NCBI GenBank assembly: GCA_017548275.1
Contig: JAFZAH010000011.1
Location: forward strand, 1 to 64,000
Length of the DNA: 64,000 nt
Source of the DNA: Prevotella sp.
GTDB lineage: Bacteria; Bacteroidota; Bacteroidia; Bacteroidales; Bacteroidaceae
Direction: 5' to 3'
The position numbers and the translations under genes are program-made. Shown piece after piece: positions 4,109 through 63,999 of the stretch. Within the stretch, counting starts at the first letter, position 1. Every line of letters starts with the position of its first letter. The notes under the pieces are model-generated. The model did not search any database. It saw only the letters and a list, made by a program, of their open reading frames with translations, and was not told the DNA's origin.

Positions 4109-7100
4109 TCAACGCTCAATCTTTCTCCAGCGCCCGTCTTTCGTCTTTACGATATAGAGGCCATGCTGTAAGAACTGTTCCAATTTCCGGCCGTCAAGCG
4201 TATAGATGCTTTCGATGTCGTCATCAGCAAGCGTAAAATCATCGATACCTGATGGCACGGTGATTTCCACACGAACCTTGACAAATTGAATATTGCCGCG
4301 CTGCGTGCCTTGCAGCACCAGTTCGAACGGCTCGGTGTAACCGCTCACACGGAGCGTTCCCTCGGGAGTCAGTTCCAAGGCACTGAGCACCTCCTGATCA
4401 GGCTCATCAGCGAAGTCATAGACGATGCGGCCCTCCCCTTCGGTGAAATCGAACAGGCTGGAGAGCGCCAGTTCATCCTCTATTACCACGGTTCCGGCAT
4501 CCTTGATGTCGCGCTCGCCGTTGAAGTCATCCATGCAGAAATAGCCAGGCGTGGTCATGCCATATTGGTTGGAGCGGCTGCTCTCTATCTGGAAACTGAC
4601 GGTGCTCACCTCGCCCAAGGGTCTCAAATCTACCCATTGCCAGGAGTCGAGGCAGTAATGCTCCGTCTCGTCTGCATCACGGAAATCAGCCAGATAATAG
4701 GCCAGGTCGCTCGTACTGCCGTCGGTGTGTTTACCGGTGACGACCATTCGCAGGTAGTCGCCCGTGCGGAAGGCACCTGGTGTCATGCCGTCGCCGTTGA
4801 AGATGGCATCGACAACCCATGCCTCGTTGGTAACATAGAACCCGTTTATCACGTCGGCGTCTTTGTTCATCACATGGATGCTCCCACCATAGGGATACAC
4901 TACCGCATAGTTCTCGCTGCCGTTATGGCCTCCTCCCACAGCATTATTGAATTGGTCGGGATACATCTGCACATAGTCGGTTTCAGTGCGGTTAGCATAT
5001 GCGAACTCGCTCCAATAGTTCCATTCGGGCATGTTGGTGTTGTCGAACAGGTAACTGCCGCTGACGAAGGAGCCACTCATGTCAGTGCCACACCAATAAC
5101 TATCCTCGGGAAGGTAGAGATTTTCGAATGTGGCAGCGACTGCGCCACCGGTGACGATGAGACGCACGGTGTCGCGGCATTCCATGCCATTGACATCGAC
5201 AACGATTACTTGCCAGTCATCACATTCCAACGGTGTGGCCTCAACAGAGCATGTGAACGTAAGGTCGTCAACGGTGTTGTCGGCAGCGTCTTCAATTTCG
5301 ATATCGTTCTCGCCCATCAACTCATGTTTGCCGTTGAGCCATGTCACATAGTAGGGAGCCTGACCTTTGACAATGGTGGCGGTGAGGGTGGTCGACGCGC
5401 CCTGTTCCACAGTCGTCACACCACTGACGGTCACCTCCGGCGCCTCCAACTCCACGACAATATTGCCTTCAGCCACAAATGCATCGGTACTGTAAAGGAT
5501 GCTCTCGGTGCCCCGCAGACTGCGCAGCACCACGAAGGCGCGGTAAGTTTTGCCGGTCTCCAACCCCGCGGCTGCGAAGGTGTTTTCACTGTCTTTGTGC
5601 AGTGCCACCGTCTGACCTTTGGTCAGCACCTTGTCAATAGCGGGTGTCGTGCTGCCTGCAGAGATGAGCACGAAGGCTTCGCAGTTCATATCGGCATTCA
5701 GTATGATACGGGCCGTGGTGTCGGTAATATCCGTCACGCCTGGATAGCCGTCGTTCATAACAGGCGCGCGGTCGTCGGCTTGGTATTCATAGGCACCGAG
5801 TGTGGGCTGTGCGCCTCGCTCTATGCCGCATATGTCAGTGCTTACCCATGACAGAGGTTCGCCACTCACCAGGGAACCGGCATCAGCGGGCTCGAGAATC
5901 TCATCGTGCAGGAATGTCACCTCCTCGTCGATACCGTCGGTTTCACCAGACTGCTCTACCCATGCGGCATGAGAGCCATAACCCGTTCCGCCGATATAAG
6001 CGAAGCCGTTGCCGTTGGTATGGTTGGCCTGATGTCGCCATGACACCGAGCCAAGATAACTGGCATTGCTTATATAGTAAACATAACCGCTACTGTTGTT
6101 TTGTAACACGTTGTTCACCATTTCCACTCCATTGCCCATCCTGTCGTTCAACCAGAAGACGGCTCCGCTCTTTCTGCCTTTCACTACAATGGTGTTGTGG
6201 GCGATGCGCAGGTGGCTCGAACTGCTGTTGACCACCATGCCATAATCAATGTTGCTGACACCTTCGACCACCACCTCGTTGTTGAACACGTTGACAGGAC
6301 AACTCTCTGTGCCGTTGACCAATCTGATATGCATGCCGGTAACCTCGCCGCTGCTGCTGATATAGAAATGGTTGCCCTCTATCACTGCGCTCTCATCGTA
6401 GGTGTCGCGCACCTGGAAATCGATGCCTCGGTAATTGTTGCCTGCCTTTTGCGTGCGCACAGTGTTGTTACGCACTTTCACACCGCTCTCTTCCATCACA
6501 TATATGCCCTTGCTGCCCTGGTCAACGAAGGTGTTGTTCTCAATCACACCGCCACGCTCTTTGGGCAAGACCACATAGCCGGTACCACCCATGCGGATGC
6601 CGATGTATCCGCCTTCAAGCAGACAATTGGTGACAGCCATGAAATCGTTGTTGCGGTTGGTCACATTCTCGGCATAGGTGTTGATAAGTTTGATGTCGCT
6701 CACATTATAACTCGAACTTGAGGCACAGTGGATATGACAATGGTCGATGGTAACGTGCCGACTCTCGCCGGTGATGTGCACCACTCCCGGGAATGTCAGG
6801 TCGGTGGTGGTGATGTCGAGACCGCGAAGCGTCACATAGTCGCAATGTGCGACGGTGAACACGCCAAATTCCTTCGACATTTTGTCATCACTGTACGGAG
6901 GCTCGTCATAGTGGTCGAAATAGATTTTCACATCTTCCCAACTGCCTGTCTGACTCTCGATGGTCAATGGATTGTTGGCTGAGGCGCCGGGGATATGGGG
7001 AACCTTCACCGTCTCGTTGTAGATGCCGGGAAGGATGCTGATGGTTACAGGACCGCTGATGCCACTGCTCACTGCATCGACAGCGGCCTGTATCGTGCCA

Positions 7101-10100
7101 TAGTCGCCGCCACGACCCACTGTCAACGTGCCTTTGAATCCTTCTTCCACCGTCATCGTGGCCGGTGTTACTTCACTCAGGTTATACGTGGTACGGTCGG
7201 TGGTGAGCAAGGTGGGGACAATGCTCAATTCGCTTCCGGCAGGGGCCTCCCCGTTTATATCAACAGCGATATGGAAATAGTAGGTGCCGTCTTTCTCAAA
7301 GGGATAATTGCCTGTGACGACCGACAGGTTGTCCGTGGACTCGCCGAAGAGAGATGTGGGTGAGAAAGCGTCGTCAGTGCCGGTGGTATAGACAGCCACG
7401 CGCCCGATATGATCAGTACCCGTGACATCGAAGTCAATCTGCTGAAGGGTCATCTTGTCGCCCTCGCCGGAAACACTCACGCCAATGGTATAGAGCAAAA
7501 CGTCGGTAGAGCCTTGCAGCACGGTGGCAGGAGTCTGATTATCTATGCTCACTTGGGTGATTTCCTGCCTTTCCACGGAGTAGGCACTCACATCGATGGC
7601 GAAACCGTCAGGCCGGGTAAACGAACTCTTCACGACAAAACGGGCGGTCAACTTGCCGTCGTCGGCACTACTCACGAAATAATCGGCCTGAGCATTGGCT
7701 CCGCTCAATGCTACCAACAACTGCTCCTCTGACACTGCACCGCCATTGTATATATAGAGGGTGTCCTTGGTTCCCAAGGAGAGTTGCTGGAAATCGAAAC
7801 GAATCAATTCTCCCTCGGTTCGCGGGTAGAAGGTCACGCTGCCGTTGAAATTCTTCGTGGCTTTGCCGTCTTCGCCGCCGTCGTCATAGAACAAGATGTG
7901 CTGACCGTGACCCACGCCAATCTCGCCGTTGTCGCCCTGTGCTATCAGGTAGATGTCCCTAAGGGTGCGCGCACCGTCGGGGTCGCCGTCGCTGACATCA
8001 ATGTCGTTGCCGCCGGCGTTGATACTTACCACACAGGCATCTATCACATCTTCGCCCAGTGCGTCATCACTCACGTCGGCGCGCAGACGGAAGAAATTGC
8101 TGCCCTCCTGCAACTGCAAGGGGGTGTCAAGTGTCAGTGTTGTGGTCTCGCCCTCAATGGTGGCTGTGCCTATGGCGGGAGTGGTCACCTCGCCGTCGTT
8201 ACGTCCTAAGTAGTATAGTGACAACTTTGACAGCGGACTGTTTTTCGTGTCGATGTTAATGCTGTTCAGACTGATAACGCTCAGGTCGCCCATGGCGGTG
8301 ATATTCAGTGTGAGCAGGTCAACATCCTTGGCGTGGTTGGGCACGATGTCGGTAGTGGTCTGCGTCACTTCCACCTTGTCAACGGCCATCGGACGTGAGA
8401 GGTATTCGCTCACTTCGGCTTGCCAACCCGTGCTGTTGTAGTTCCAGTCATTGGGGCAGAAGAGGATGGTCAATGAACCATCTGAGGCGGTACTGCGCAC
8501 GATGTGGCCGGGACCGACATCCTTGTCGGCCACGTCTTTCAACTCCCACAGCACAGGGCCGTTGGCATTTGAGCCGCTGATAATCTTGAATGTCGATTTC
8601 ACGCCACCGATATAACTGGTGGTATATTGTAAGCCGAATTCGCTGAAGTCAATCTGGCATACCATACCTTCATGCTTGGGATGGAATATGGTGATGCGCT
8701 CGTCGTTGCCGGCTTCATACAGGTGTTGATACTCGCTCATGTCGCGGGTGCGGAAATGCAGGCTGCCGTTCACTGTGCGGTTTTGTGTGCCTTGGTTGGC
8801 ATAGCAATATACCGTATTGTTGACCTCGCGGCTGCCGGCGGGATTGCCGTCACTGACAGTGGTTGATGTGCCGCTCAATGTAACGGCAGTGAGGCCGCCA
8901 TCCACGGTGGTGCCTTCCACGGCGCCGTCGCTGATATCGTAGGTGAGGAAGAAATAGTTGACACCCTCGTAAAGGGTGACGGGATTGTCGGGCGTGATGG
9001 TGAAGTCATCTGCCGAAACGGTGGCGGTGCCCACCAATTGCCCTTTTTCCTTGTTGCTGATGCCTGCGAAATAAAGTTTTGCCGCGGCGATGTTCTGCCA
9101 TGTGCCGGCCGTGGTGAAGGTGAACTGGTCAGCGGTCAATGCGGGTTCGGTGTCTTTGGTGATGACATTGAACAGAAGGATGGGCTGCCCTTTGTCGTCG
9201 GCACAGACACTCTCTAATGTGGGATGCTCGGCTGCCACATGGTCGAGCGTCATGGGTTGAGGCACAAATTGGGTCACCAATGCCTCTATTCCGTCTGCCG
9301 TCTGCTGTGTGCCGTTGTTGCCGAGAAAAACGGTAAGCGAGCCGTCAGAGGCACTGCTGCGGACCACACAGGTCTCTCCGTGGCGCAACGTCTTGAGCAA
9401 TTGGCTGCTCTTTTTCTCACGGCCGTTATACACCTCGATGTATTGGTAATAAATAGAACCGTTGGCCAAGGCTATCTTTTGGAAGTCAACCTGAATCTTT
9501 TTAGACGGATCTTCAGGAACAAAAGTAACACTGCCGTTGAATCCGGCGGTGATTTCCCCGTCTTTGCCTCCGTCATCGTAAAGCATAATGGGCACATCGC
9601 CTACGGTCACCTCTTGTCCTTGGGTGTCCATGATGATGATGGCGGGAGTGGTGATGGTAACGGGTGTCCCTTGTTCAAGCGCCAATCCGTCAGGATGTTG
9701 TTGGGTGGTCACACGGGTGACTTCCACTTGTGTGTGGCTGCCTATAGGCGCATCGTCAAGGAGGTCGCCCACGAGGGTGAACAGGTTGGTGCCATGGTGC
9801 AACTGACGGTTCAGTGTGAAGGTGTAACCCTGTCCGTCGGCCGACGGTGAGGTGCCGATGAGTTCAGTGCCGGAACCGCCATCTCCTTCATACAAGCGAA
9901 GTTTCGTGGCGTCAAAGGCGTTTTCATCAATGCTCATGCGATAACTCAGAGAAGTGAGTCTGTCCGCATGTTCTGCTCCCTCGGTATCAATGATGACACC
10001 GGCCAACGTCAGGTTCTTGCGCATCGTGGGACTGCCACTGACAAGGCTGTAGTCGGTGCGGGCTTCGTGAATCACCATGTCTTGGCGCTCTATACATCTC

Positions 10101-14940: not shown

Positions 14941-14966
14941 TGCTGCGCTAACCCAAGAGCGCAACA
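14941..14966 (-). other. Hairpin between the B12 box and the btuB start (riboswitch expression platform)
   Basis: On the minus strand TGTTGCGCT and AGCGCAGCA form a 9-bp stem (one G-U pair) closing a short CTTGGGTT loop, directly downstream of the B12 box and 20 nt before the ATG at 14922. There is no T-run, so control of translation initiation or a kissing-loop partner is more likely than transcription termination; this is inference. Confidence 0.5.
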
Positions 14967-14974
14967 TGTATCTT

Positions 14975-15140
14975 GGCAAAGGCAGGTCTTCTGACTTCGT
15001 TGACCGTTGCGAACGCCTTCCCGATGTTCATCAGTGGCTCGTTGTTCGCAACGATAATGTCAACTCACAGCAGCCGGACTGTCCGGGATTTTCACCCGTG
15101 TTCCCTTGTTCATCACGTATAGTGAACCAATTGCCATGTT
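14975..15140 (-). promoter_or_regulatory. Cobalamin (adenosylcobalamin-type) riboswitch aptamer
   Basis: Reading the minus strand, the conserved core GGGTGAAAATCCCGGAC is followed by GTCCGGCTGCTG and, after a variable arm with the stem GTTGCGAAC.../...GTTCGCAAC, the B12 box GAAGTCAGAAGACCTGCC at 14998-14981. These are the hallmark elements of the cobalamin riboswitch. It lies between a promoter at 15148-15181 and the btuB start at 14922, so B12 should repress btuB and its downstream genes. Confidence 0.93.
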
Positions 15141-15147
15141 GATGCTG

Positions 15148-15363: not shown

Positions 15364-15434
15364 TTGTCCAAGGCGGATTCGAACCACCACAAACAGAACC
15401 AAAACCTGTTGTGCTACCATTACACCATTGGACA
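15364..15434 (-). tRNA. tRNA-Gln (anticodon TTG)
   Basis: The minus strand folds into a full cloverleaf: acceptor TGTCCAA/TTGGACA with discriminator A, D arm GTG/CAC, anticodon stem ACAGG/TCTGT with loop TTTTGGT (anticodon TTG), and T loop TTCGAAT. CCA is not encoded. The gene is flanked by its own promoter and terminator and looks like the normal housekeeping copy. Confidence 0.93.
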
Positions 15435-59858: not shown

Positions 59859-59966
59859 CGTTTAGCCAAATGAGCAGAGTGATGCTTGCATCGACTCTTT
59901 CATGGCGAGAAAAAGTCGAATGTAATTCAACTTTTTATTTTTCAAGTTTTTAATGAAGAAACAACC

Positions 59967-60380
59967 ATGCCTGCGAATAAGAATGCCTTAATCAGGTACA
60001 AGACTATAGACAGATGTCTGAGAAACAGATATAGGAGGTGGACCCTCGACGACCTCGTGGATGCGTGCTGCGACGCGCTCTACGACATGGAGGGCATCAC
60101 CAAGGGCGTATGCGCCAGGACCGTACAGATGGACATCCAGATGATGAGGTCCGACAAATTGGGTTACAATGCCCCTATTGTGGTGTATGACAAAATCTAC
60201 TACACATACGCCGACCCCGACTACTCCATCACGGAGATGCCTTTGTCGATGGATGACTGCAAACTCATCAAGGAGGCCATCACCCTGCTCGGCGACATGG
60301 ACAACCCCGATGCCGCCAGGGCAAAGACCATCCTTGCAAAAGTAAAAAACAGGCTGACATCCATCCTGAATTTCGTATAA
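59967..60380 (+). CDS. HTH protein resembling the N-terminus of WYL-domain regulators
   Basis: 137 aa from the ATG at 59967 (MPANKNALIRYKTIDRCLRN). The sequence NRYRRWTLDDLVDACCDAL and KGVCARTVQMDIQMMRSDKLGYNAPI matches the winged-HTH start of Bacteroidetes WYL regulators, but the protein stops where their linker begins (AITLLGDMDNPDAARAKTIL), with no WYL domain. Every one of its 10 arginines is AGA or AGG, whereas neighbours favour CGC/CGT, which suggests foreign origin. A terminator follows. It lies directly beside the tRNA array, in opposite orientation. It may be a truncated regulator or a distinct short family. Confidence 0.75.
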   Translation: MPANKNALIRYKTIDRCLRNRYRRWTLDDLVDACCDALYDMEGITKGVCARTVQMDIQMMRSDKLGYNAPIVVYDKIYYTYADPDYSITEMPLSMDDCKLIKEAITLLGDMDNPDAARAKTILAKVKNRLTSILNFV

Positions 60381-60415
60381 AAGGCTTCCTTTTTAACTTG
60401 AAAGGAAGCCTTTTT
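60379..60415. terminator. Bidirectional terminator between the HTH gene and the tRNA array
   Basis: AAAGGCTTCCTTT and AAAGGAAGCCTTT form a strong stem around TTAACTTG; the plus strand continues TTTTTG and the minus strand TTTTATAC. It overlaps the HTH stop codon and lies 1 nt from the last tRNA. Confidence 0.85.
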
Positions 60416-60416
60416 G

Positions 60417-60489
60417 TCTGGATAGCGAGACTCGAACTCACTCCTCAAACTCCCAAAGTTCGAATGCTACCATTAAACACCATATCCAG
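60417..60489 (-). tRNA. tRNA-Pro-like (anticodon TGG), divergent
   Basis: Acceptor CTGGATA/TATCCAG with discriminator A; D arm with GTG/CAT; anticodon stem CGAAC/GTTTG with loop TTTGGGA (anticodon TGG); T arm GTGAG/CTCGC with loop TTCGAGT. The D arm (ATGGTGT...AATGGTAGCA) looks like the tRNA-Gln at 15364, not like standard tRNA-Pro, so function and charging are uncertain. Confidence 0.75.
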
Positions 60490-60501
60490 AAGTTGTATTT
60501 G

Positions 60502-60574
60502 TGGCCCGTGAGAGTTTTGGACTCCCGATAGCGACAATCAGAACGTCATGTTCTAATCCTGCTGCTATCGAGCC
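60502..60574 (-). pseudogene. Degenerate tRNA-like element (formal anticodon TGA)
   Basis: The minus strand aligns with the neighbouring tRNA-Arg: acceptor GGCTCG/CGGGCC (7th pair A-A), T stem GGGAG/CTCTC. But the T loop reads TCCAAAA instead of TTCGAAT, the anticodon loop CATGACG has no T before the anticodon, and there is no normal D stem. A long hairpin (GATAGC...GCTATC plus ATTAGAAC/GTTCTGAT) dominates. It is either a decayed tRNA or a tRNA-like RNA. Confidence 0.6.
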
Positions 60575-60579
60575 GAGAG

Positions 60580-60652
60580 TGCTCCAAGTTGGATTCGAAC
60601 CAACGACCCGTTCATTAAAAGTGAACTGCTCTGCCAACTGAGCCATTGGAGC
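60580..60652 (-). tRNA. tRNA-Lys (anticodon TTT)
   Basis: Acceptor GCTCCAA/TTGGAGC with discriminator A, D stem GCTC/GAGC, anticodon stem GTTCA/TGAAC with loop CTTTTAA (anticodon TTT), T arm GTTGG/CCAAC with TTCGAAT. A regular cloverleaf. Confidence 0.93.
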
Positions 60653-60658
60653 ATTTTG

Positions 60659-60732
60659 TAGTCGGTACGAGCATCGAACTCGTATGGGCAGATTGAAAAT
60701 CTGCAATCCTAATCCATTTAGATGAACCGACC
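60659..60732 (-). tRNA. tRNA-Glu (anticodon TTC)
   Basis: Acceptor GGTCGGT/ACCGACT (G-T at the first pair), D stem ATCT/GGAT, anticodon stem GCAGA/TCTGC with loop TTTTCAA (anticodon TTC), T arm CGAG/CTCG with TTCGATG. Its 5' end abuts the first unit of the 71-bp repeat. Confidence 0.85.
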
Positions 60733-60938
60733 GAGCAGCGAGAGCCATCATGCTTGCACGAATGGCCGAGTCGCGAGGGAGGAAGACCACAAGTCAACCG
60801 ACCGAGCAGCGAGAGCCATCATGTTTGCATAAATGGCCGAGTCGCGAGGGAGGAAGACCACAAGTCAACCGACCGAGTAGCGAGAGCCATCATGTTTGCA
60901 TGAATGGCCGAGTCGCGAGGGAGGAAGGCCATAGGCCA
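60726..60938. repeat. Three tandem copies of a 71-bp repeat inside the tRNA array
   Basis: Units begin at 60726, 60797 and 60868 (a fourth partial start at 60939), each with ACCGACCGAGCAGCGAGAGC, CATCATGTTTGCATAAATGG-type hairpin (GCCAT/ATGGC) and CCGAGTCGCGAGGGAGGAAG. Period 71 bp is close to a tRNA length. The first unit overlaps the 5' end of tRNA-Glu. It has no CRISPR spacers, and the plus-strand frame through it looks fortuitous. Confidence 0.9.
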
Positions 60939-60952
60939 ACCGACCATTTAAG

Positions 60953-61025
60953 GGAGTTTGACAGGTTTCGAACCTGCGTAAACAAGTGCCACAAACTTGC
61001 GCCTAACCACTCGGCCACAAACTCC
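60953..61025 (-). tRNA. tRNA-His (anticodon GTG)
   Basis: Encoded G-1 pairs with discriminator C73, the tRNA-His hallmark; acceptor GAGTTTG/CAAACTC, D stem GCC/GGC, anticodon stem CAAGT/ACTTG with loop TTGTGGC (anticodon GTG), T loop TTCGAAA. Confidence 0.9.
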
Positions 61026-61031
61026 GTGTAG

Positions 61032-61103
61032 TTGCTCCAGATGGATTTGAACCACCTCTAACAGATTTAAAATCTGCTGTGCTGACCATTACGCCATGGG
61101 GCA
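61032..61103 (-). tRNA. tRNA with anticodon TTA (putative ochre-reading, Gln-like)
   Basis: Acceptor TGCCCCA/TGGAGCA (one C-A mismatch), discriminator A; D arm ATGGCGTAATGGTCAGCAC; anticodon stem GCAGA/TCTGT closing the 7-nt loop TTTTAAA, so the anticodon is TTA, which reads UAA; T stem GGTGG/CCATC with loop TTCAAAT. The D arm and anticodon stem align closely with the tRNA-Gln at 15364 (ATGGTGTAATGGTAGCAC, ACAGG/TCTGT). Whether it is charged or active is unknown. Confidence 0.75.
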
Positions 61104-61109
61104 TTGTCG

Positions 61110-61192
61110 TTCGGAAGGCAGGACTCGAACCGGCGATGTCGTTAGATGACGGATTTACAGTCCGCTCTCGTAGCCGCTGGAAGCACTTCCGA
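61110..61192 (-). tRNA. tRNA-Tyr (anticodon GTA)
   Basis: Acceptor TCGGAAG/CTTCCGA, discriminator A, anticodon stem GCGGA/TCCGT with loop CTGTAAA (anticodon GTA), long variable arm, T loop TTCGAGT. The D arm is a little unusual, but the class II form fits. Confidence 0.9.
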
Positions 61193-61199
61193 GTATATT

Positions 61200-61274
61200 G
61201 TGGAGCCTCGTGGAATTGAACCACGTTCTCAGGATTTTCAGTCCTGCGCATACACCAAGTCTGCCAAGTCTCCA
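61200..61274 (-). tRNA. tRNA-Phe-like (anticodon GAA)
   Basis: Anticodon stem GCAGGA/TCCTG with loop CTGAAAA (anticodon GAA), T arm CGTGG/CCACG with TTCAATT. Acceptor TGGAGAC/GGCTCCA has one A-G mismatch, and the D arm (GGCAGACTTGG) looks more like a Leu tRNA. Divergent but plausible. Confidence 0.75.
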
Positions 61275-61280
61275 GTTTTG

Positions 61281-61353
61281 TGACTCGTGAGAGATTCGAA
61301 CTCCCGACACCGACGTTCGTAGCGTCGTACTCTATCCACTGAGTTAACGAGCC
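61281..61353 (-). tRNA. tRNA-Arg (anticodon ACG)
   Basis: Acceptor GGCTCGT/ACGAGTC (one G-T), discriminator A, D stem ACTC/GAGT, anticodon stem CGACG/CGTCG with loop CTACGAA (anticodon ACG), T loop TTCGAAT. Confidence 0.93.
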
Positions 61354-61361
61354 AATTCCAG

Positions 61362-61447
61362 CGGAAGCAGGAGGATTCGAACCTCCGGAACCGGGACGGT
61401 TCAACACGTTAGCAGTGTGCCGCTTTAGACCTCTCAGCCATACTTCC
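61362..61447 (-). tRNA. tRNA-Ser (anticodon GCT)
   Basis: Acceptor GGAAGTA/TGCTTCC, discriminator G (as usual for Ser), long variable arm, anticodon loop CTGCTAA (anticodon GCT) with an A-C mismatch at the bottom of the stem, T loop TTCGAAT. First gene of the array. Confidence 0.9.
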
Positions 61448-61463
61448 TTATGGATTACCGGTG

Positions 61464-61471
61464 CAAAGATA
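61464..61471 (-). promoter_or_regulatory. -7 box of the tRNA array
   Basis: Minus-strand TATCTTTG fits TAnnTTTG and is followed by GCACCGG; it starts 17 nt before the first tRNA. The stretch 61472-61680 holds AT-rich sequence without a gene. Confidence 0.65.
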
Positions 61472-61690
61472 TGATGGGCGAATGAAGTCTTTTTTCGTTT
61501 TAGATATTTTTTTATTGGTATCCGGTATAATTTTCTCAACTTTGTGGGATTATATGTGAATACTGGTTATTTGTGTGCTTTGGATTGGTATTTATTTCTA
61601 GGACGTCGGGGAGTTGGCTGACACCCTTGAGATCCTTAAAGGAGGGAGTGATCATTGTGAATTGTCAATTGTGAATTTTGAATTGATTTT

Positions 61691-61737: not shown

Positions 61738-63999
61738 ATGCGTAAAACAGTGCTTTTGATAATCTGTTTGTGCTGGTGGTTGACGGGTGCGGCACAGACG
61801 GTCAGCGTGAGCGAGGCGTACCAAAAGGCGCAGGCGTTTATGGGCGAGAAAGGGAAGCAAGTGGCAGCGAACGCGCACAGGGCTCCCGGCACCCACGGTC
61901 AAGAAGCGGCTGCATACTATGTGTTCAACGCCACCGGCGACGGGGGCTTCGTGCTAGTGTCGGGCGACAGCCGGGTGGGCGACATTCTCGGCTATTGCGA
62001 CGAAGGCTCGTTCAATGAGGAGCAGTTGCCCGACAACATGCGTGCATGGCTGCAAGGCTATGCCGACCAAATCGAGGCACTGCGACAGGGACGTAAGGTG
62101 GTTCCGGCTCAGGTGCCGACTCACGCCGCCATCAACCCGATGATTACCTCTCGATGGGATCAGGGTTCGTCACAGGGCGACGCCTACAACCGTCAGTGCC
62201 CCAAGATTGACGGCAAGTACTGCATGACGGGTTGCGTGGCCACATCGATGGCGCAAGTCATGCGCTACCACCGATGGCCCAAATCGTCAACAAAGAAAAT
62301 ACCCTCATACGAGTCGAACGAGACGTTGGGCACCCTCAGCGCCTTGTCGGCCAGGACCTTCGATTGGGATAACATGCTCGACACTTACCAAGGCGGCGAA
62401 AGTACCACACAAATGAACGCCGTAGCGTGGCTGATGCGATACTGCGGTCAGGCTGTTAAGATGGACTACGGCACCAAGTCATCGGCTGCTTACTCTGACG
62501 ATGTGGCGATGGCACTGCGCGAGTATTTCGGTTATGATGTCAACACCCGTTATGTGGTGCGTCTGGACTACAGCGCCGCAGGATGGGACAATCTGATATA
62601 CAATGAGTTGAAAAACAGTCGCCCCGTGTGTTACAACGGTTCATCGACGGGCGGCGGCCACTCTTTCGTGTGCGACGGCTATGACGGAAAAGGTTTCTAC
62701 CACATCAACTGGGGTTGGGGCGGCAACCATGACGGTTATTACAAAATCACACTGCTCAATCCCGACGGCGGCGGTACAGGCAGCAGCGGCACCGAAGACG
62801 GTTACACGATGAATCACGGTGCGGTGGTGGGTATCCAAAAAGACACCAGTTTCGACGATGACAAACGCATCCTGACGTTAGCCGACTTCAGTTATAGCGG
62901 TTCGACCATCAATGCAATTTATTGGAACAGGACCGGCATGAGCGGCACCTTCCAGTACGGACTGGTTTATCAGAACGTGAATAACACTGATGGCACGTTC
63001 CAATTGCGCTATCAAACAGATGACTTCAACCAATTCGTGCAGCGCACCTACAGCGACGATGTGAACACCATGAATTTAGCCGACGGCACCTACCGTTTCT
63101 ATCCTTTCAGCCGGATCGACGGCTCCGACTGGTATCGTATGCAGGGCGACTACGAGACCTATATCGAGGTGGTGATGAAAAACGGCCAGAAACAGTCGAT
63201 GTCGCGCCACCCGAAGGGCAACCTGCATGTGAAAAGCGTCACCTGCACAGGCAATAAGATTGTGGGCATGCCGCAGGAGGTAAAAATCACGGTCAGTAAT
63301 ACGGGCGATGAGTTCAACAACGTGTTCTACCTCTTCGCCTCAAAGACCAACGAGAAAGGCGAGTGGATCAGCACGACCAACATGGTGATAGAGGCGGGCG
63401 CCACCGAAGAGGCAACCCTCTATTTCACCCCCGAGAGCACCGGCACATGGAATCTGTGGATAGATATCGATGAGATGGGAGAGAACAACATCGGACCCTA
63501 TCAGGTGACCATCAACAGTGCGCCTACGGGTGACAGCAATCTGGCACTGACCAAATACACCATCGATGCTATATCAAGCGGAGCGGATATCCATGCCACT
63601 GTAAAGAACAACGCCTCGCAAGGGTATTACCGGCCAGTGGCGTGCGCCATCTTCACTCCCGGAAGCAACACCAGCATCATGGTGACCAAATCGGGCAACC
63701 TCAACCTCGCTGCGGGGAAGACGGTCAACCTGGATTTTCATGTCGAGGGACTGACATCGGGCAAACAATATTATGCCATGCTCGCACTGTATCCGCAGCA
63801 TACCGCCACTAGTTTGGCTGTCTTCGGCAACCGCATGTATTTCGTGCCTACCGTCACGGGCATCGACCAAATTACCACCGACCCAACACCTATGGAAGAA
63901 GGGGGTGACTACTACACCCTCGACGGCCGCAAACTGGACAAACGACCCACACAGAAAGGCGTGTATATCGTGAACGGGAAGAAGATGGTGATTAAGTAA
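61738..63999 (+). CDS. Secreted C10 family cysteine peptidase (streptopain/interpain-like) with sorting tail
   Basis: 753 aa. Signal peptide (MRKTVLLIICLCWWLTGAAQ), an inhibitory Spi-like prodomain (about 20-125, AFMGEKGKQVAANAHRAP; GGFVLVSGDSRVGDILGYCD) and a catalytic domain with Cys 166 in YCMTGCVATSMAQVM and His 308 in GGGHSFVCDGYDG, plus HINWGWGG. Beta domains follow (about 385-690), one CARDB-like. The C-terminal tail YYTLDGRKLDKRPTQKGVYI with VNGKKMVIK resembles those on other secreted proteins in this window. The whole gene fits, ending one base before the window edge. It is likely a host-protein-degrading virulence-type protease; the target is unknown. Confidence 0.93.
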   Translation: MRKTVLLIICLCWWLTGAAQTVSVSEAYQKAQAFMGEKGKQVAANAHRAPGTHGQEAAAYYVFNATGDGGFVLVSGDSRVGDILGYCDEGSFNEEQLPDNMRAWLQGYADQIEALRQGRKVVPAQVPTHAAINPMITSRWDQGSSQGDAYNRQCPKIDGKYCMTGCVATSMAQVMRYHRWPKSSTKKIPSYESNETLGTLSALSARTFDWDNMLDTYQGGESTTQMNAVAWLMRYCGQAVKMDYGTKSSAAYSDDVAMALREYFGYDVNTRYVVRLDYSAAGWDNLIYNELKNSRPVCYNGSSTGGGHSFVCDGYDGKGFYHINWGWGGNHDGYYKITLLNPDGGGTGSSGTEDGYTMNHGAVVGIQKDTSFDDDKRILTLADFSYSGSTINAIYWNRTGMSGTFQYGLVYQNVNNTDGTFQLRYQTDDFNQFVQRTYSDDVNTMNLADGTYRFYPFSRIDGSDWYRMQGDYETYIEVVMKNGQKQSMSRHPKGNLHVKSVTCTGNKIVGMPQEVKITVSNTGDEFNNVFYLFASKTNEKGEWISTTNMVIEAGATEEATLYFTPESTGTWNLWIDIDEMGENNIGPYQVTINSAPTGDSNLALTKYTIDAISSGADIHATVKNNASQGYYRPVACAIFTPGSNTSIMVTKSGNLNLAAGKTVNLDFHVEGLTSGKQYYAMLALYPQHTATSLAVFGNRMYFVPTVTGIDQITTDPTPMEEGGDYYTLDGRKLDKRPTQKGVYIVNGKKMVIK

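Follow-up and report, generated by a model that had tools for sequence, protein, structure and literature searches.

A glutamine-type tRNA with a UUA anticodon, a candidate ochre suppressor, in a small accessory tRNA array of Prevotella sp.

Introduction

Dense clusters of extra tRNA genes, which are redundant with the tRNA genes of their hosts and occur in chromosomes, plasmids and phages, have been described as tRNA array units, and the passages of the source that bear on their definition set the limit at no fewer than 20 tRNA genes in one region (Morgado and Vicente 2018, PMC5966550). For the tRNA arrays of Acidithiobacillus the corresponding part of another report describes horizontal acquisition (PMC5468388). 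The array considered here is located in a 64,000-nucleotide stretch of Prevotella sp. DNA, the whole of which was analysed and is further called the window. As far as these descriptions go, it is similar to the array units in its redundancy with the other tRNAs of the genome, but instead of at least 20 tRNAs it contains nine called ones, and 1 to 11 were counted across 43 array loci. Tran et al. 2015 is reportedly also a source on tRNA array units. Compared to the units as they are outlined in the passages concerned, the array is set apart by a recurring short protein of winged-helix type, by a common promoter element and by tRNAs of the Gln type with changed anticodons.

In Escherichia coli, ochre suppressors of the supB type are laboratory mutants of a housekeeping tRNA, in which the anticodon of tRNA-Gln is converted from UUG to UUA by a G36 to A substitution. 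The same conversion by the same substitution is seen in the tRNA described below, but here it is found in a wild genome and in an accessory tRNA.

Two other comparable systems belong to phages. Sets of phage tRNAs were proposed to evade anticodon nucleases of the host, and the model, in the part of the paper devoted to it, predicts changes in the loops (van den Berg et al. 2023, PMC10264068). Like these sets, as they are presented there, the array studied here consists of diverged duplicate tRNAs that exist beside a complete host set; unlike them it is bacterial rather than phage-borne, and its anticodon loops differ in just four of eight compared pairs. With stop-reassigning Prevotella phages and crAss-like phages, so far as the accounts of them reach, it shares the expected reading of a stop codon as an amino acid (glutamine in the crAss-like case), but no recoded genes were found in the window, the array is bacterial and the anticodon is UUA.

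Results and Discussion

The UUA tRNA gene and stop codons of the window

A Gln-type tRNA with a UUA anticodon had been noticed in the original prediction as a candidate natural ochre suppressor with the anticodon arm GCAGA-TTTTAAA-TCTGT. Both the assignment and the arm were borne out: ARAGORN called tRNA-Stop(tta) at positions 61031–61103 of the window, and the Rfam tRNA model matched positions 61032–61103 with 54.1 bits (E 7.7e-09, gathering cut-off 29). The gene, for which the prediction had given no strand, is on the minus strand, and its tRNA-Gln(UUG)-type body was recognized by tree and alignment. Thus, at the sequence level it is a complete tRNA (61032–61103) with an anticodon that should pair with UAA. 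Pairing of the stems by hand revealed a C-A mismatch 4-69 in the acceptor stem, shared by both of the closest Gln relatives, and a C-A mismatch 11-24 in the D stem, which neither of them has; brackets in the ARAGORN output mark only pairs that form, so a count of mismatches made from the brackets is uninformative.

Since the gene is one of nine tRNAs called in a row, and a search pattern combining the Gln-type body with a YYA anticodon matched only 2 of 398 genomes of the genus (G000, by the UUA gene itself, and G427), its appearance by chance can be set aside. The figure 2 of 398 is a lower bound, because the control pattern with Gln anticodons found matches in just 27 of 60 genomes and therefore misses many Gln tRNAs.

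For a genome with TAA as a stop, a candidate natural ochre suppressor is by itself an unusual find. Among 35 non-overlapping ATG-started open reading frames of at least 200 codons in the window, 21 end with TAA, 9 with TGA and 5 with TAG, so that TAA is, as had been stated before, an ordinary stop here. Nothing pointed to an alternative code within the 64,000 nucleotides, where genes use both TAA and TAG as stops. Given that 26 of these 35 frames are closed by TAA or TAG, strong suppression at all times would carry a cost, and this speaks for a suppressor that is weakly or only conditionally active.

Composition and redundancy of the array

The array is a single run on the minus strand, composed of nine tRNAs called by ARAGORN and one decayed tRNA. 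It begins with tRNA-Ser(GCT) (61361–61447), followed by tRNA-Arg(ACG) (61280–61353), tRNA-Phe(GAA) (61200–61273), tRNA-Tyr(GTA) (61109–61192), the UUA tRNA as the fifth, tRNA-His(GTG) (60952–61024), tRNA-Glu(TTC) (60658–60732), tRNA-Lys(TTT) (60579–60652), the decayed gene (60501–60574) and, as the last one, tRNA-Pro(TGG) (60416–60489). The decayed gene was called neither by ARAGORN nor by Rfam; in alignment it resembles the array tRNA-Arg(CCG) of G018, with 53 identical aligned positions. Low Rfam scores were obtained for tRNA-Tyr (34.9 bits) and tRNA-Pro (31.4 bits). Between tRNA-His and tRNA-Glu there are three tandem copies of a hairpin-forming 71-nt repeat (60725–60945, from the sequence and its alignment). 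One similar copy is present at the equivalent place in the arrays of G018, G207 and G121, and no further copy was found in the rest of the window or in the compared loci of the same genome. A perfect 14-bp inverted repeat resembling a terminator (60379–60414) separates the array from a convergent protein gene. At the promoter end the array is adjoined by a gene for a C10 family cysteine peptidase with a Spi-type inhibitor domain (61738–63999).

The draft genome comprises 3.22 Mb in 56 contigs, with a completeness of 87%, and the search gave 53 tRNA matches in it. The array is redundant, since its isotypes have separate genes elsewhere in this genome: Ser(GCT), Arg(ACG), Phe, Tyr, His, Glu(TTC), Lys(TTT), Pro(TGG) and both Gln types were all found there. 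From these counterparts the array tRNAs are diverged, with identical positions numbering, for instance, 44 of 75 for Pro, 48 of 75 for His and 56 of 74 for Lys. Anticodon loops, if compared with those of counterparts bearing the same anticodon, differ in four of eight pairs, each time by one base.

Origin of the UUA anticodon

The DNA search with the UUA tRNA gave matches in 10 of 299 genomes of the genus, its own included. In seven of the nine others the match lies within a run of 3 to 11 called tRNAs, and the remaining two are a single tRNA near a contig end and a lone tRNA-Gln in G162 (locus L088). In the tree of Gln-type tRNAs the UUA gene clusters with array tRNA-Gln(TTG) genes of G404 and G396 (support 0.76 and 0.91, obtained with short sequences), which, like the UUA gene, directly precede tRNA-His. 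In alignment the difference from the array tRNA-Gln(TTG) of G404 amounts to 4 substitutions and 1 indel, the G36 to A change being among the substitutions, while 13 mismatches and 3 gaps separate the UUA gene from the housekeeping tRNA-Gln(TTG) of its own genome (15363–15434). Hence the tRNA-Gln at 15364, to which the gene had been likened and from which it was supposed to originate by an anticodon change, was rejected as the source. The likeness is real though loose. Judging by the alignment and the tree, the UUA tRNA is apparently derived from an amino-acid tRNA, the tRNA-Gln(UUG) of an accessory array, by the anticodon change G36 to A. Near the housekeeping tRNA-Gln a cobalamin riboswitch was registered by Rfam (14964–15147, minus strand).

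Other anticodons are also carried by bodies of this type. Gln-type tRNAs with CCG or TCG anticodons were found in arrays of G018, G138, G207, G121, G103 and in the record MT837178.1. Together with a member from G427 they form one clade with support 0.99 (G103 was left out of the tree). The G427 member is an array tRNA with the stop anticodon TCA, while the rest of the clade has TCG or CCG, and TCA differs from TCG by the same substitution, G36 to A. Stop anticodons are present in 2 of the 43 array loci.

Gln-type bodies with the Arg anticodons CCG and TCG were noted at loci L081, L083, L084, L067, L080 and L235, making up a recurrent anticodon-switched lineage. Several of these tRNAs have, by hand reading, U73, which is unusual.

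Promoter element of the arrays

Upstream of the first tRNA of the window array the sequence pattern revealed the element ACGAAAAAAGACTTCAT in the position of the -33 box (61482–61498, minus strand) and a -7-type box TATCTTTG (61464–61471, minus strand), which starts 24 nt before this tRNA. The motif TTGCTACGAAAAAAGGCTTCAT is common to the upstream regions of many arrays and is followed about 10 nt further by a TAnnTTTG box. Canonical tRNA genes of the same genome often have, as judged by eye, a TTTGG-type -33 box and then the same kind of -7 box.

The combination of element and box was registered in 32 of 43 array loci versus none of 69 upstream regions of the genome's own canonical tRNAs, where 32 of 43 is a descriptive value, since many of the arrays counted had also served to compose the pattern, and the 69 regions include inner operon genes and overlapping loci counted repeatedly, so that about 44 of them are distinct. 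The 43 loci, with 1 to 11 tRNAs each, were chosen by ourselves; one contains a single tRNA (L236), and in 11 pairs of loci half or more of the tRNA sequences are common to both members. The 11 loci that did not match comprise three with hardly any upstream sequence or none (L110, L163, L183), four in which a variant of the element was recognized by eye (L121, L123, L147, L172), and L106 to L109, for which the search started at an upstream tRNA-Asn.

In its own genome the element has one exact copy, at the array, and one match with two mismatches elsewhere, the total of two being equal to that given by the reversed pattern at no more than two mismatches. Across the genus 57 of 398 genomes match with up to two mismatches, and the reversed control also matches a number of genomes. 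Eleven places in the genus have at most one mismatch: eight are at arrays, and three, all with the exact element, are without an array (G414, G229, G393). The core of the element resembles the arms of terminators, and some of the half-matches are such arms (L239, L240). The suggestion that the suppressor is conditional, made in the original prediction, is indirectly supported by a promoter element that was not found upstream of the canonical tRNAs of this genome.

A short protein linked to the arrays

The convergent gene (59967–60380, plus strand) encodes a protein of 137 amino acids. According to homology, domain scan and structural model it is similar to the N-terminal winged-helix part of transcription regulators with WYL domains. 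Its identity to this part of full-length homologues reaches at most 74% (62% for the homologue from the same genome, less for others), but unlike them it ends at about 137 residues, without the WYL and WCX domains, which were both found in all three full-length homologues scanned, whereas no WYL or WCX domain of Pfam was found in the short protein. Searches of the latter against Pfam, PADLOC, NCBIfam and PHROGs gave nothing significant, and the best PDB sequence match had E 0.04. The model (mean pLDDT 80) has the order helix-helix-helix-strand-strand with additional C-terminal helices. Foldseek gave no match for it at E ≤ 0.001, with the WYL regulators DriD and PafBC appearing at E of about 0.4. 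Taken together, sequence and model suggest a protein resembling the N-terminal winged helix of full-length WYL proteins, to which it is homologous, and ending before the WYL domain. The gene is preceded by a hairpin with a T run, noticed by eye (59910–59936, plus strand), which may be a leader or a terminator; such hairpins precede the gene in many closer relatives as well (by eye).

The short protein is present in 9 of 13 compared loci, the window included, and is 76 to 99% identical between them. Of the four loci in which it is missing, three are truncated at a contig end (L068, L086, L087), and the fourth is the locus of the lone tRNA-Gln, L088. Neighbouring genes are common to L082, L083 and L084 and, separately, to L069 and L080; otherwise there is little in common between these groups and the window. 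Among the 30 best loci of the genus search, 19 have two or more called tRNAs, two have one and nine have none, and all four full-length proteins of this set belong to the nine loci without tRNAs.

A scan of GTDB contigs gave 568 confirmed loci, and among the best 80 of them 38 encode short forms (up to 140 amino acids) and 39 full-length ones; three were left out of the comparison, one being of middle length and two open-ended. At least two tRNAs within 2 kb were found for 24 of the 38 short forms and for none of the 39 full-length forms in these best 80 loci. Counting only convergent tRNAs downstream gave 22 of 38 versus 0 of 39 (Fisher p 2e-9, calculated for loci that are related and thus not independent). 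Conversely, 14 of the 38 short forms are without two tRNAs within 2 kb and 16 are without two convergent ones downstream, and some of these 16 have tRNAs 2 to 3 kb away. The 24 tRNA-linked short forms come from Prevotella, Paludibacteraceae, Salinivirgaceae, Muribaculaceae, Bacteroidaceae and unplaced Bacteroidales, while one is labelled Saccharibacteria (L163), which is perhaps a binning error. At the sequence level, a small tRNA array with its own promoter element and a short winged-helix-type protein forms a recurrent module of Bacteroidales. In the open-licence literature no description was found of such a module or of a chromosomal suppressor tRNA in Prevotella.

In two genomes a full-length WYL homologue is located near the short protein (4984–5394 and 6462–6893 in L245, contig G404:C3, and on the one contig of L135/L155), which suggests a local duplication or a functional pair.

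Gain and loss of the module, plasmids and phages

In G018 the protein gene and the array lie, as judged by eye, between an ATPase-like and a methyltransferase-like gene. In G393 and G414 both flanks can be aligned to those of G018 and the promoter element is kept, but about 1.8 kb with the protein gene and the array are missing. Such alignments indicate that protein gene and array are presumably gained and lost as a unit in Bacteroidales. On a plasmid of Segatella hominis, NZ_CP137560.1, there are six tRNAs of an array, together with the promoter element and a short protein of 77% identity.

Genes around the window array are ordinary bacterial ones. Among viral contigs of IMG/VR no relative of the short protein was confirmed, and neither the array promoter nor the arm pattern of the UUA tRNA found a match. 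The pattern of the Gln-type body matched one contig, with a related array tRNA at a prophage end. In the phage collection the DNA search gave 94 records, none of them covering 80% of the query, and among the 20 listed most matches are to single tRNAs. Matches of the array tRNAs to single phage tRNAs are loose, as in the case of tRNA-Phe of phage cr112_1 (74%). The protein matched four fragments of 4 to 17 kb labelled 'Bacteriophage sp.'. The best of these records, MT837178.1, which is flagged UNVERIFIED, contains 9 array tRNAs together with the short protein, but genes next to them also occur on the G045 chromosome, and the record looks bacterial.

Phages as the main home of the arrays were rejected, given the empty IMG/VR scans for protein, promoter and arm pattern and the single prophage-end contig. 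The earlier proposal that the tRNA belongs to an element with another code gained no support from the IMG/VR contigs, where the protein had no confirmed relative and promoter and arm pattern no match, or from genes of the window, which end at TAA normally.

In the contig with the prophage end (L247, IMGVR_UViG_3300028591_000993, 5054–8322) an integrase-like gene was noticed by eye. Array-type tRNAs at the end of this stretch suggest that phages may use arrays as sites of integration.

Possible roles of the UUA tRNA

On balance we favour, with some reservation, the interpretation that a genuine UUA tRNA of the tRNA-Gln type belongs to a conditional accessory array and acts there as a weak suppressor tolerated as a by-product. 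Its anticodon would have arisen from UUG by the G36 to A change, and the array with the short winged-helix-type protein would be a module gained and lost in Bacteroidales. Because the array has its own type of promoter, it is probably switched on only in some condition, and the linked short protein is its likely regulator. When expressed, the UUA tRNA could be charged by GlnRS, the gene of which is present in the same genome (686 bits), probably at reduced efficiency, and would then read UAA, and UAG by wobble, as glutamine at a low level, as expected from suppressor genetics. The array as a whole may most likely serve as a reserve of diverged tRNAs for a stress that removes the normal ones, for instance tRNA cleavage during phage attack, and the suppressor would most likely be a tolerated by-product of a change in a dispensable tRNA. 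Since anticodon loops differ in just four of eight pairs, the reserve idea gains no specific support from them, and these differences neither support nor exclude it.

The main rival is decay of the array copy in the window, which under relaxed selection would be wearing out, with the UUA anticodon as a neutral step on the way to a pseudogene and no role in decoding. The decayed tRNA at 60501–60574 and the new C-A mismatch in the D stem of the suppressor, registered by hand, fit decay as well as the favoured interpretation; the repeat copies within the array, the low Rfam scores of tRNA-Tyr and tRNA-Pro and the rarity of stop anticodons among the array loci point in the same direction. Nine tRNAs of the array are, however, still called, its promoter element is intact and the suppressor is only 4 substitutions and 1 indel away from the nearest relative, so we regard decay as rather unlikely, though with a weight that has to be reckoned with. 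A sequencing or assembly error at position 36 of an ordinary tRNA-Gln(UUG) might be suspected in a draft of this fragmentation and completeness, where the key difference is one base. But there are three other substitutions relative to the nearest relative, and G427 independently has a stop anticodon in a Gln-type array tRNA whose clade otherwise has TCG or CCG, which leaves such an error very improbable. Slightly less credit still is given to a role of the UUA tRNA in a phage or mobile element with an alternative code, where UAA or UAG would specify glutamine. Such a role is made conceivable by alternatively coded Lak phages with Prevotella as their host and by crAss-like phages in which TAG is translated as glutamine (PMC8346664, PMC9523058), and likewise by the loose matches to single phage tRNAs such as that of cr112_1. 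However, in the parts of those reports devoted to recoding it is TAG, not TAA, that is concerned; IMG/VR yielded a single related tRNA, located where a prophage contig ends, with no confirmed relative of the protein and no match for promoter or arm pattern; the phage records matching the protein are short fragments, the best of which shares genes with a bacterial chromosome; and TAA is used as a stop by genes of the window.

The suppressor alone may be a product of drift, the surrounding module being the more interesting result. An improbable but more far-reaching interpretation is that the module is a switchable second tRNA set with a dedicated regulator, in which the switched Gln-type anticodons (UUA, UCA, CCG, UCG) deliberately alter decoding. 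Were it true, stop codons and arginine codons would be partly read as glutamine when the array is on, and the altered decoding could spoil phage proteins or help the cell to survive the loss of tRNAs. In any event, a recurrent compact module makes the question of what redundant and diverged tRNA sets are kept for testable in named carriers, such as Prevotella ruminicola KHT3 (L124) and Segatella hominis HDD12 (L250), whose arrays have no UUA gene.

At two loci, L134 and L136, a tRNA-Val with the AAC anticodon, which is unusual for bacteria, is located near the gene of the short protein, and in L134 the tRNAs Tyr-His-Arg are duplicated in tandem.
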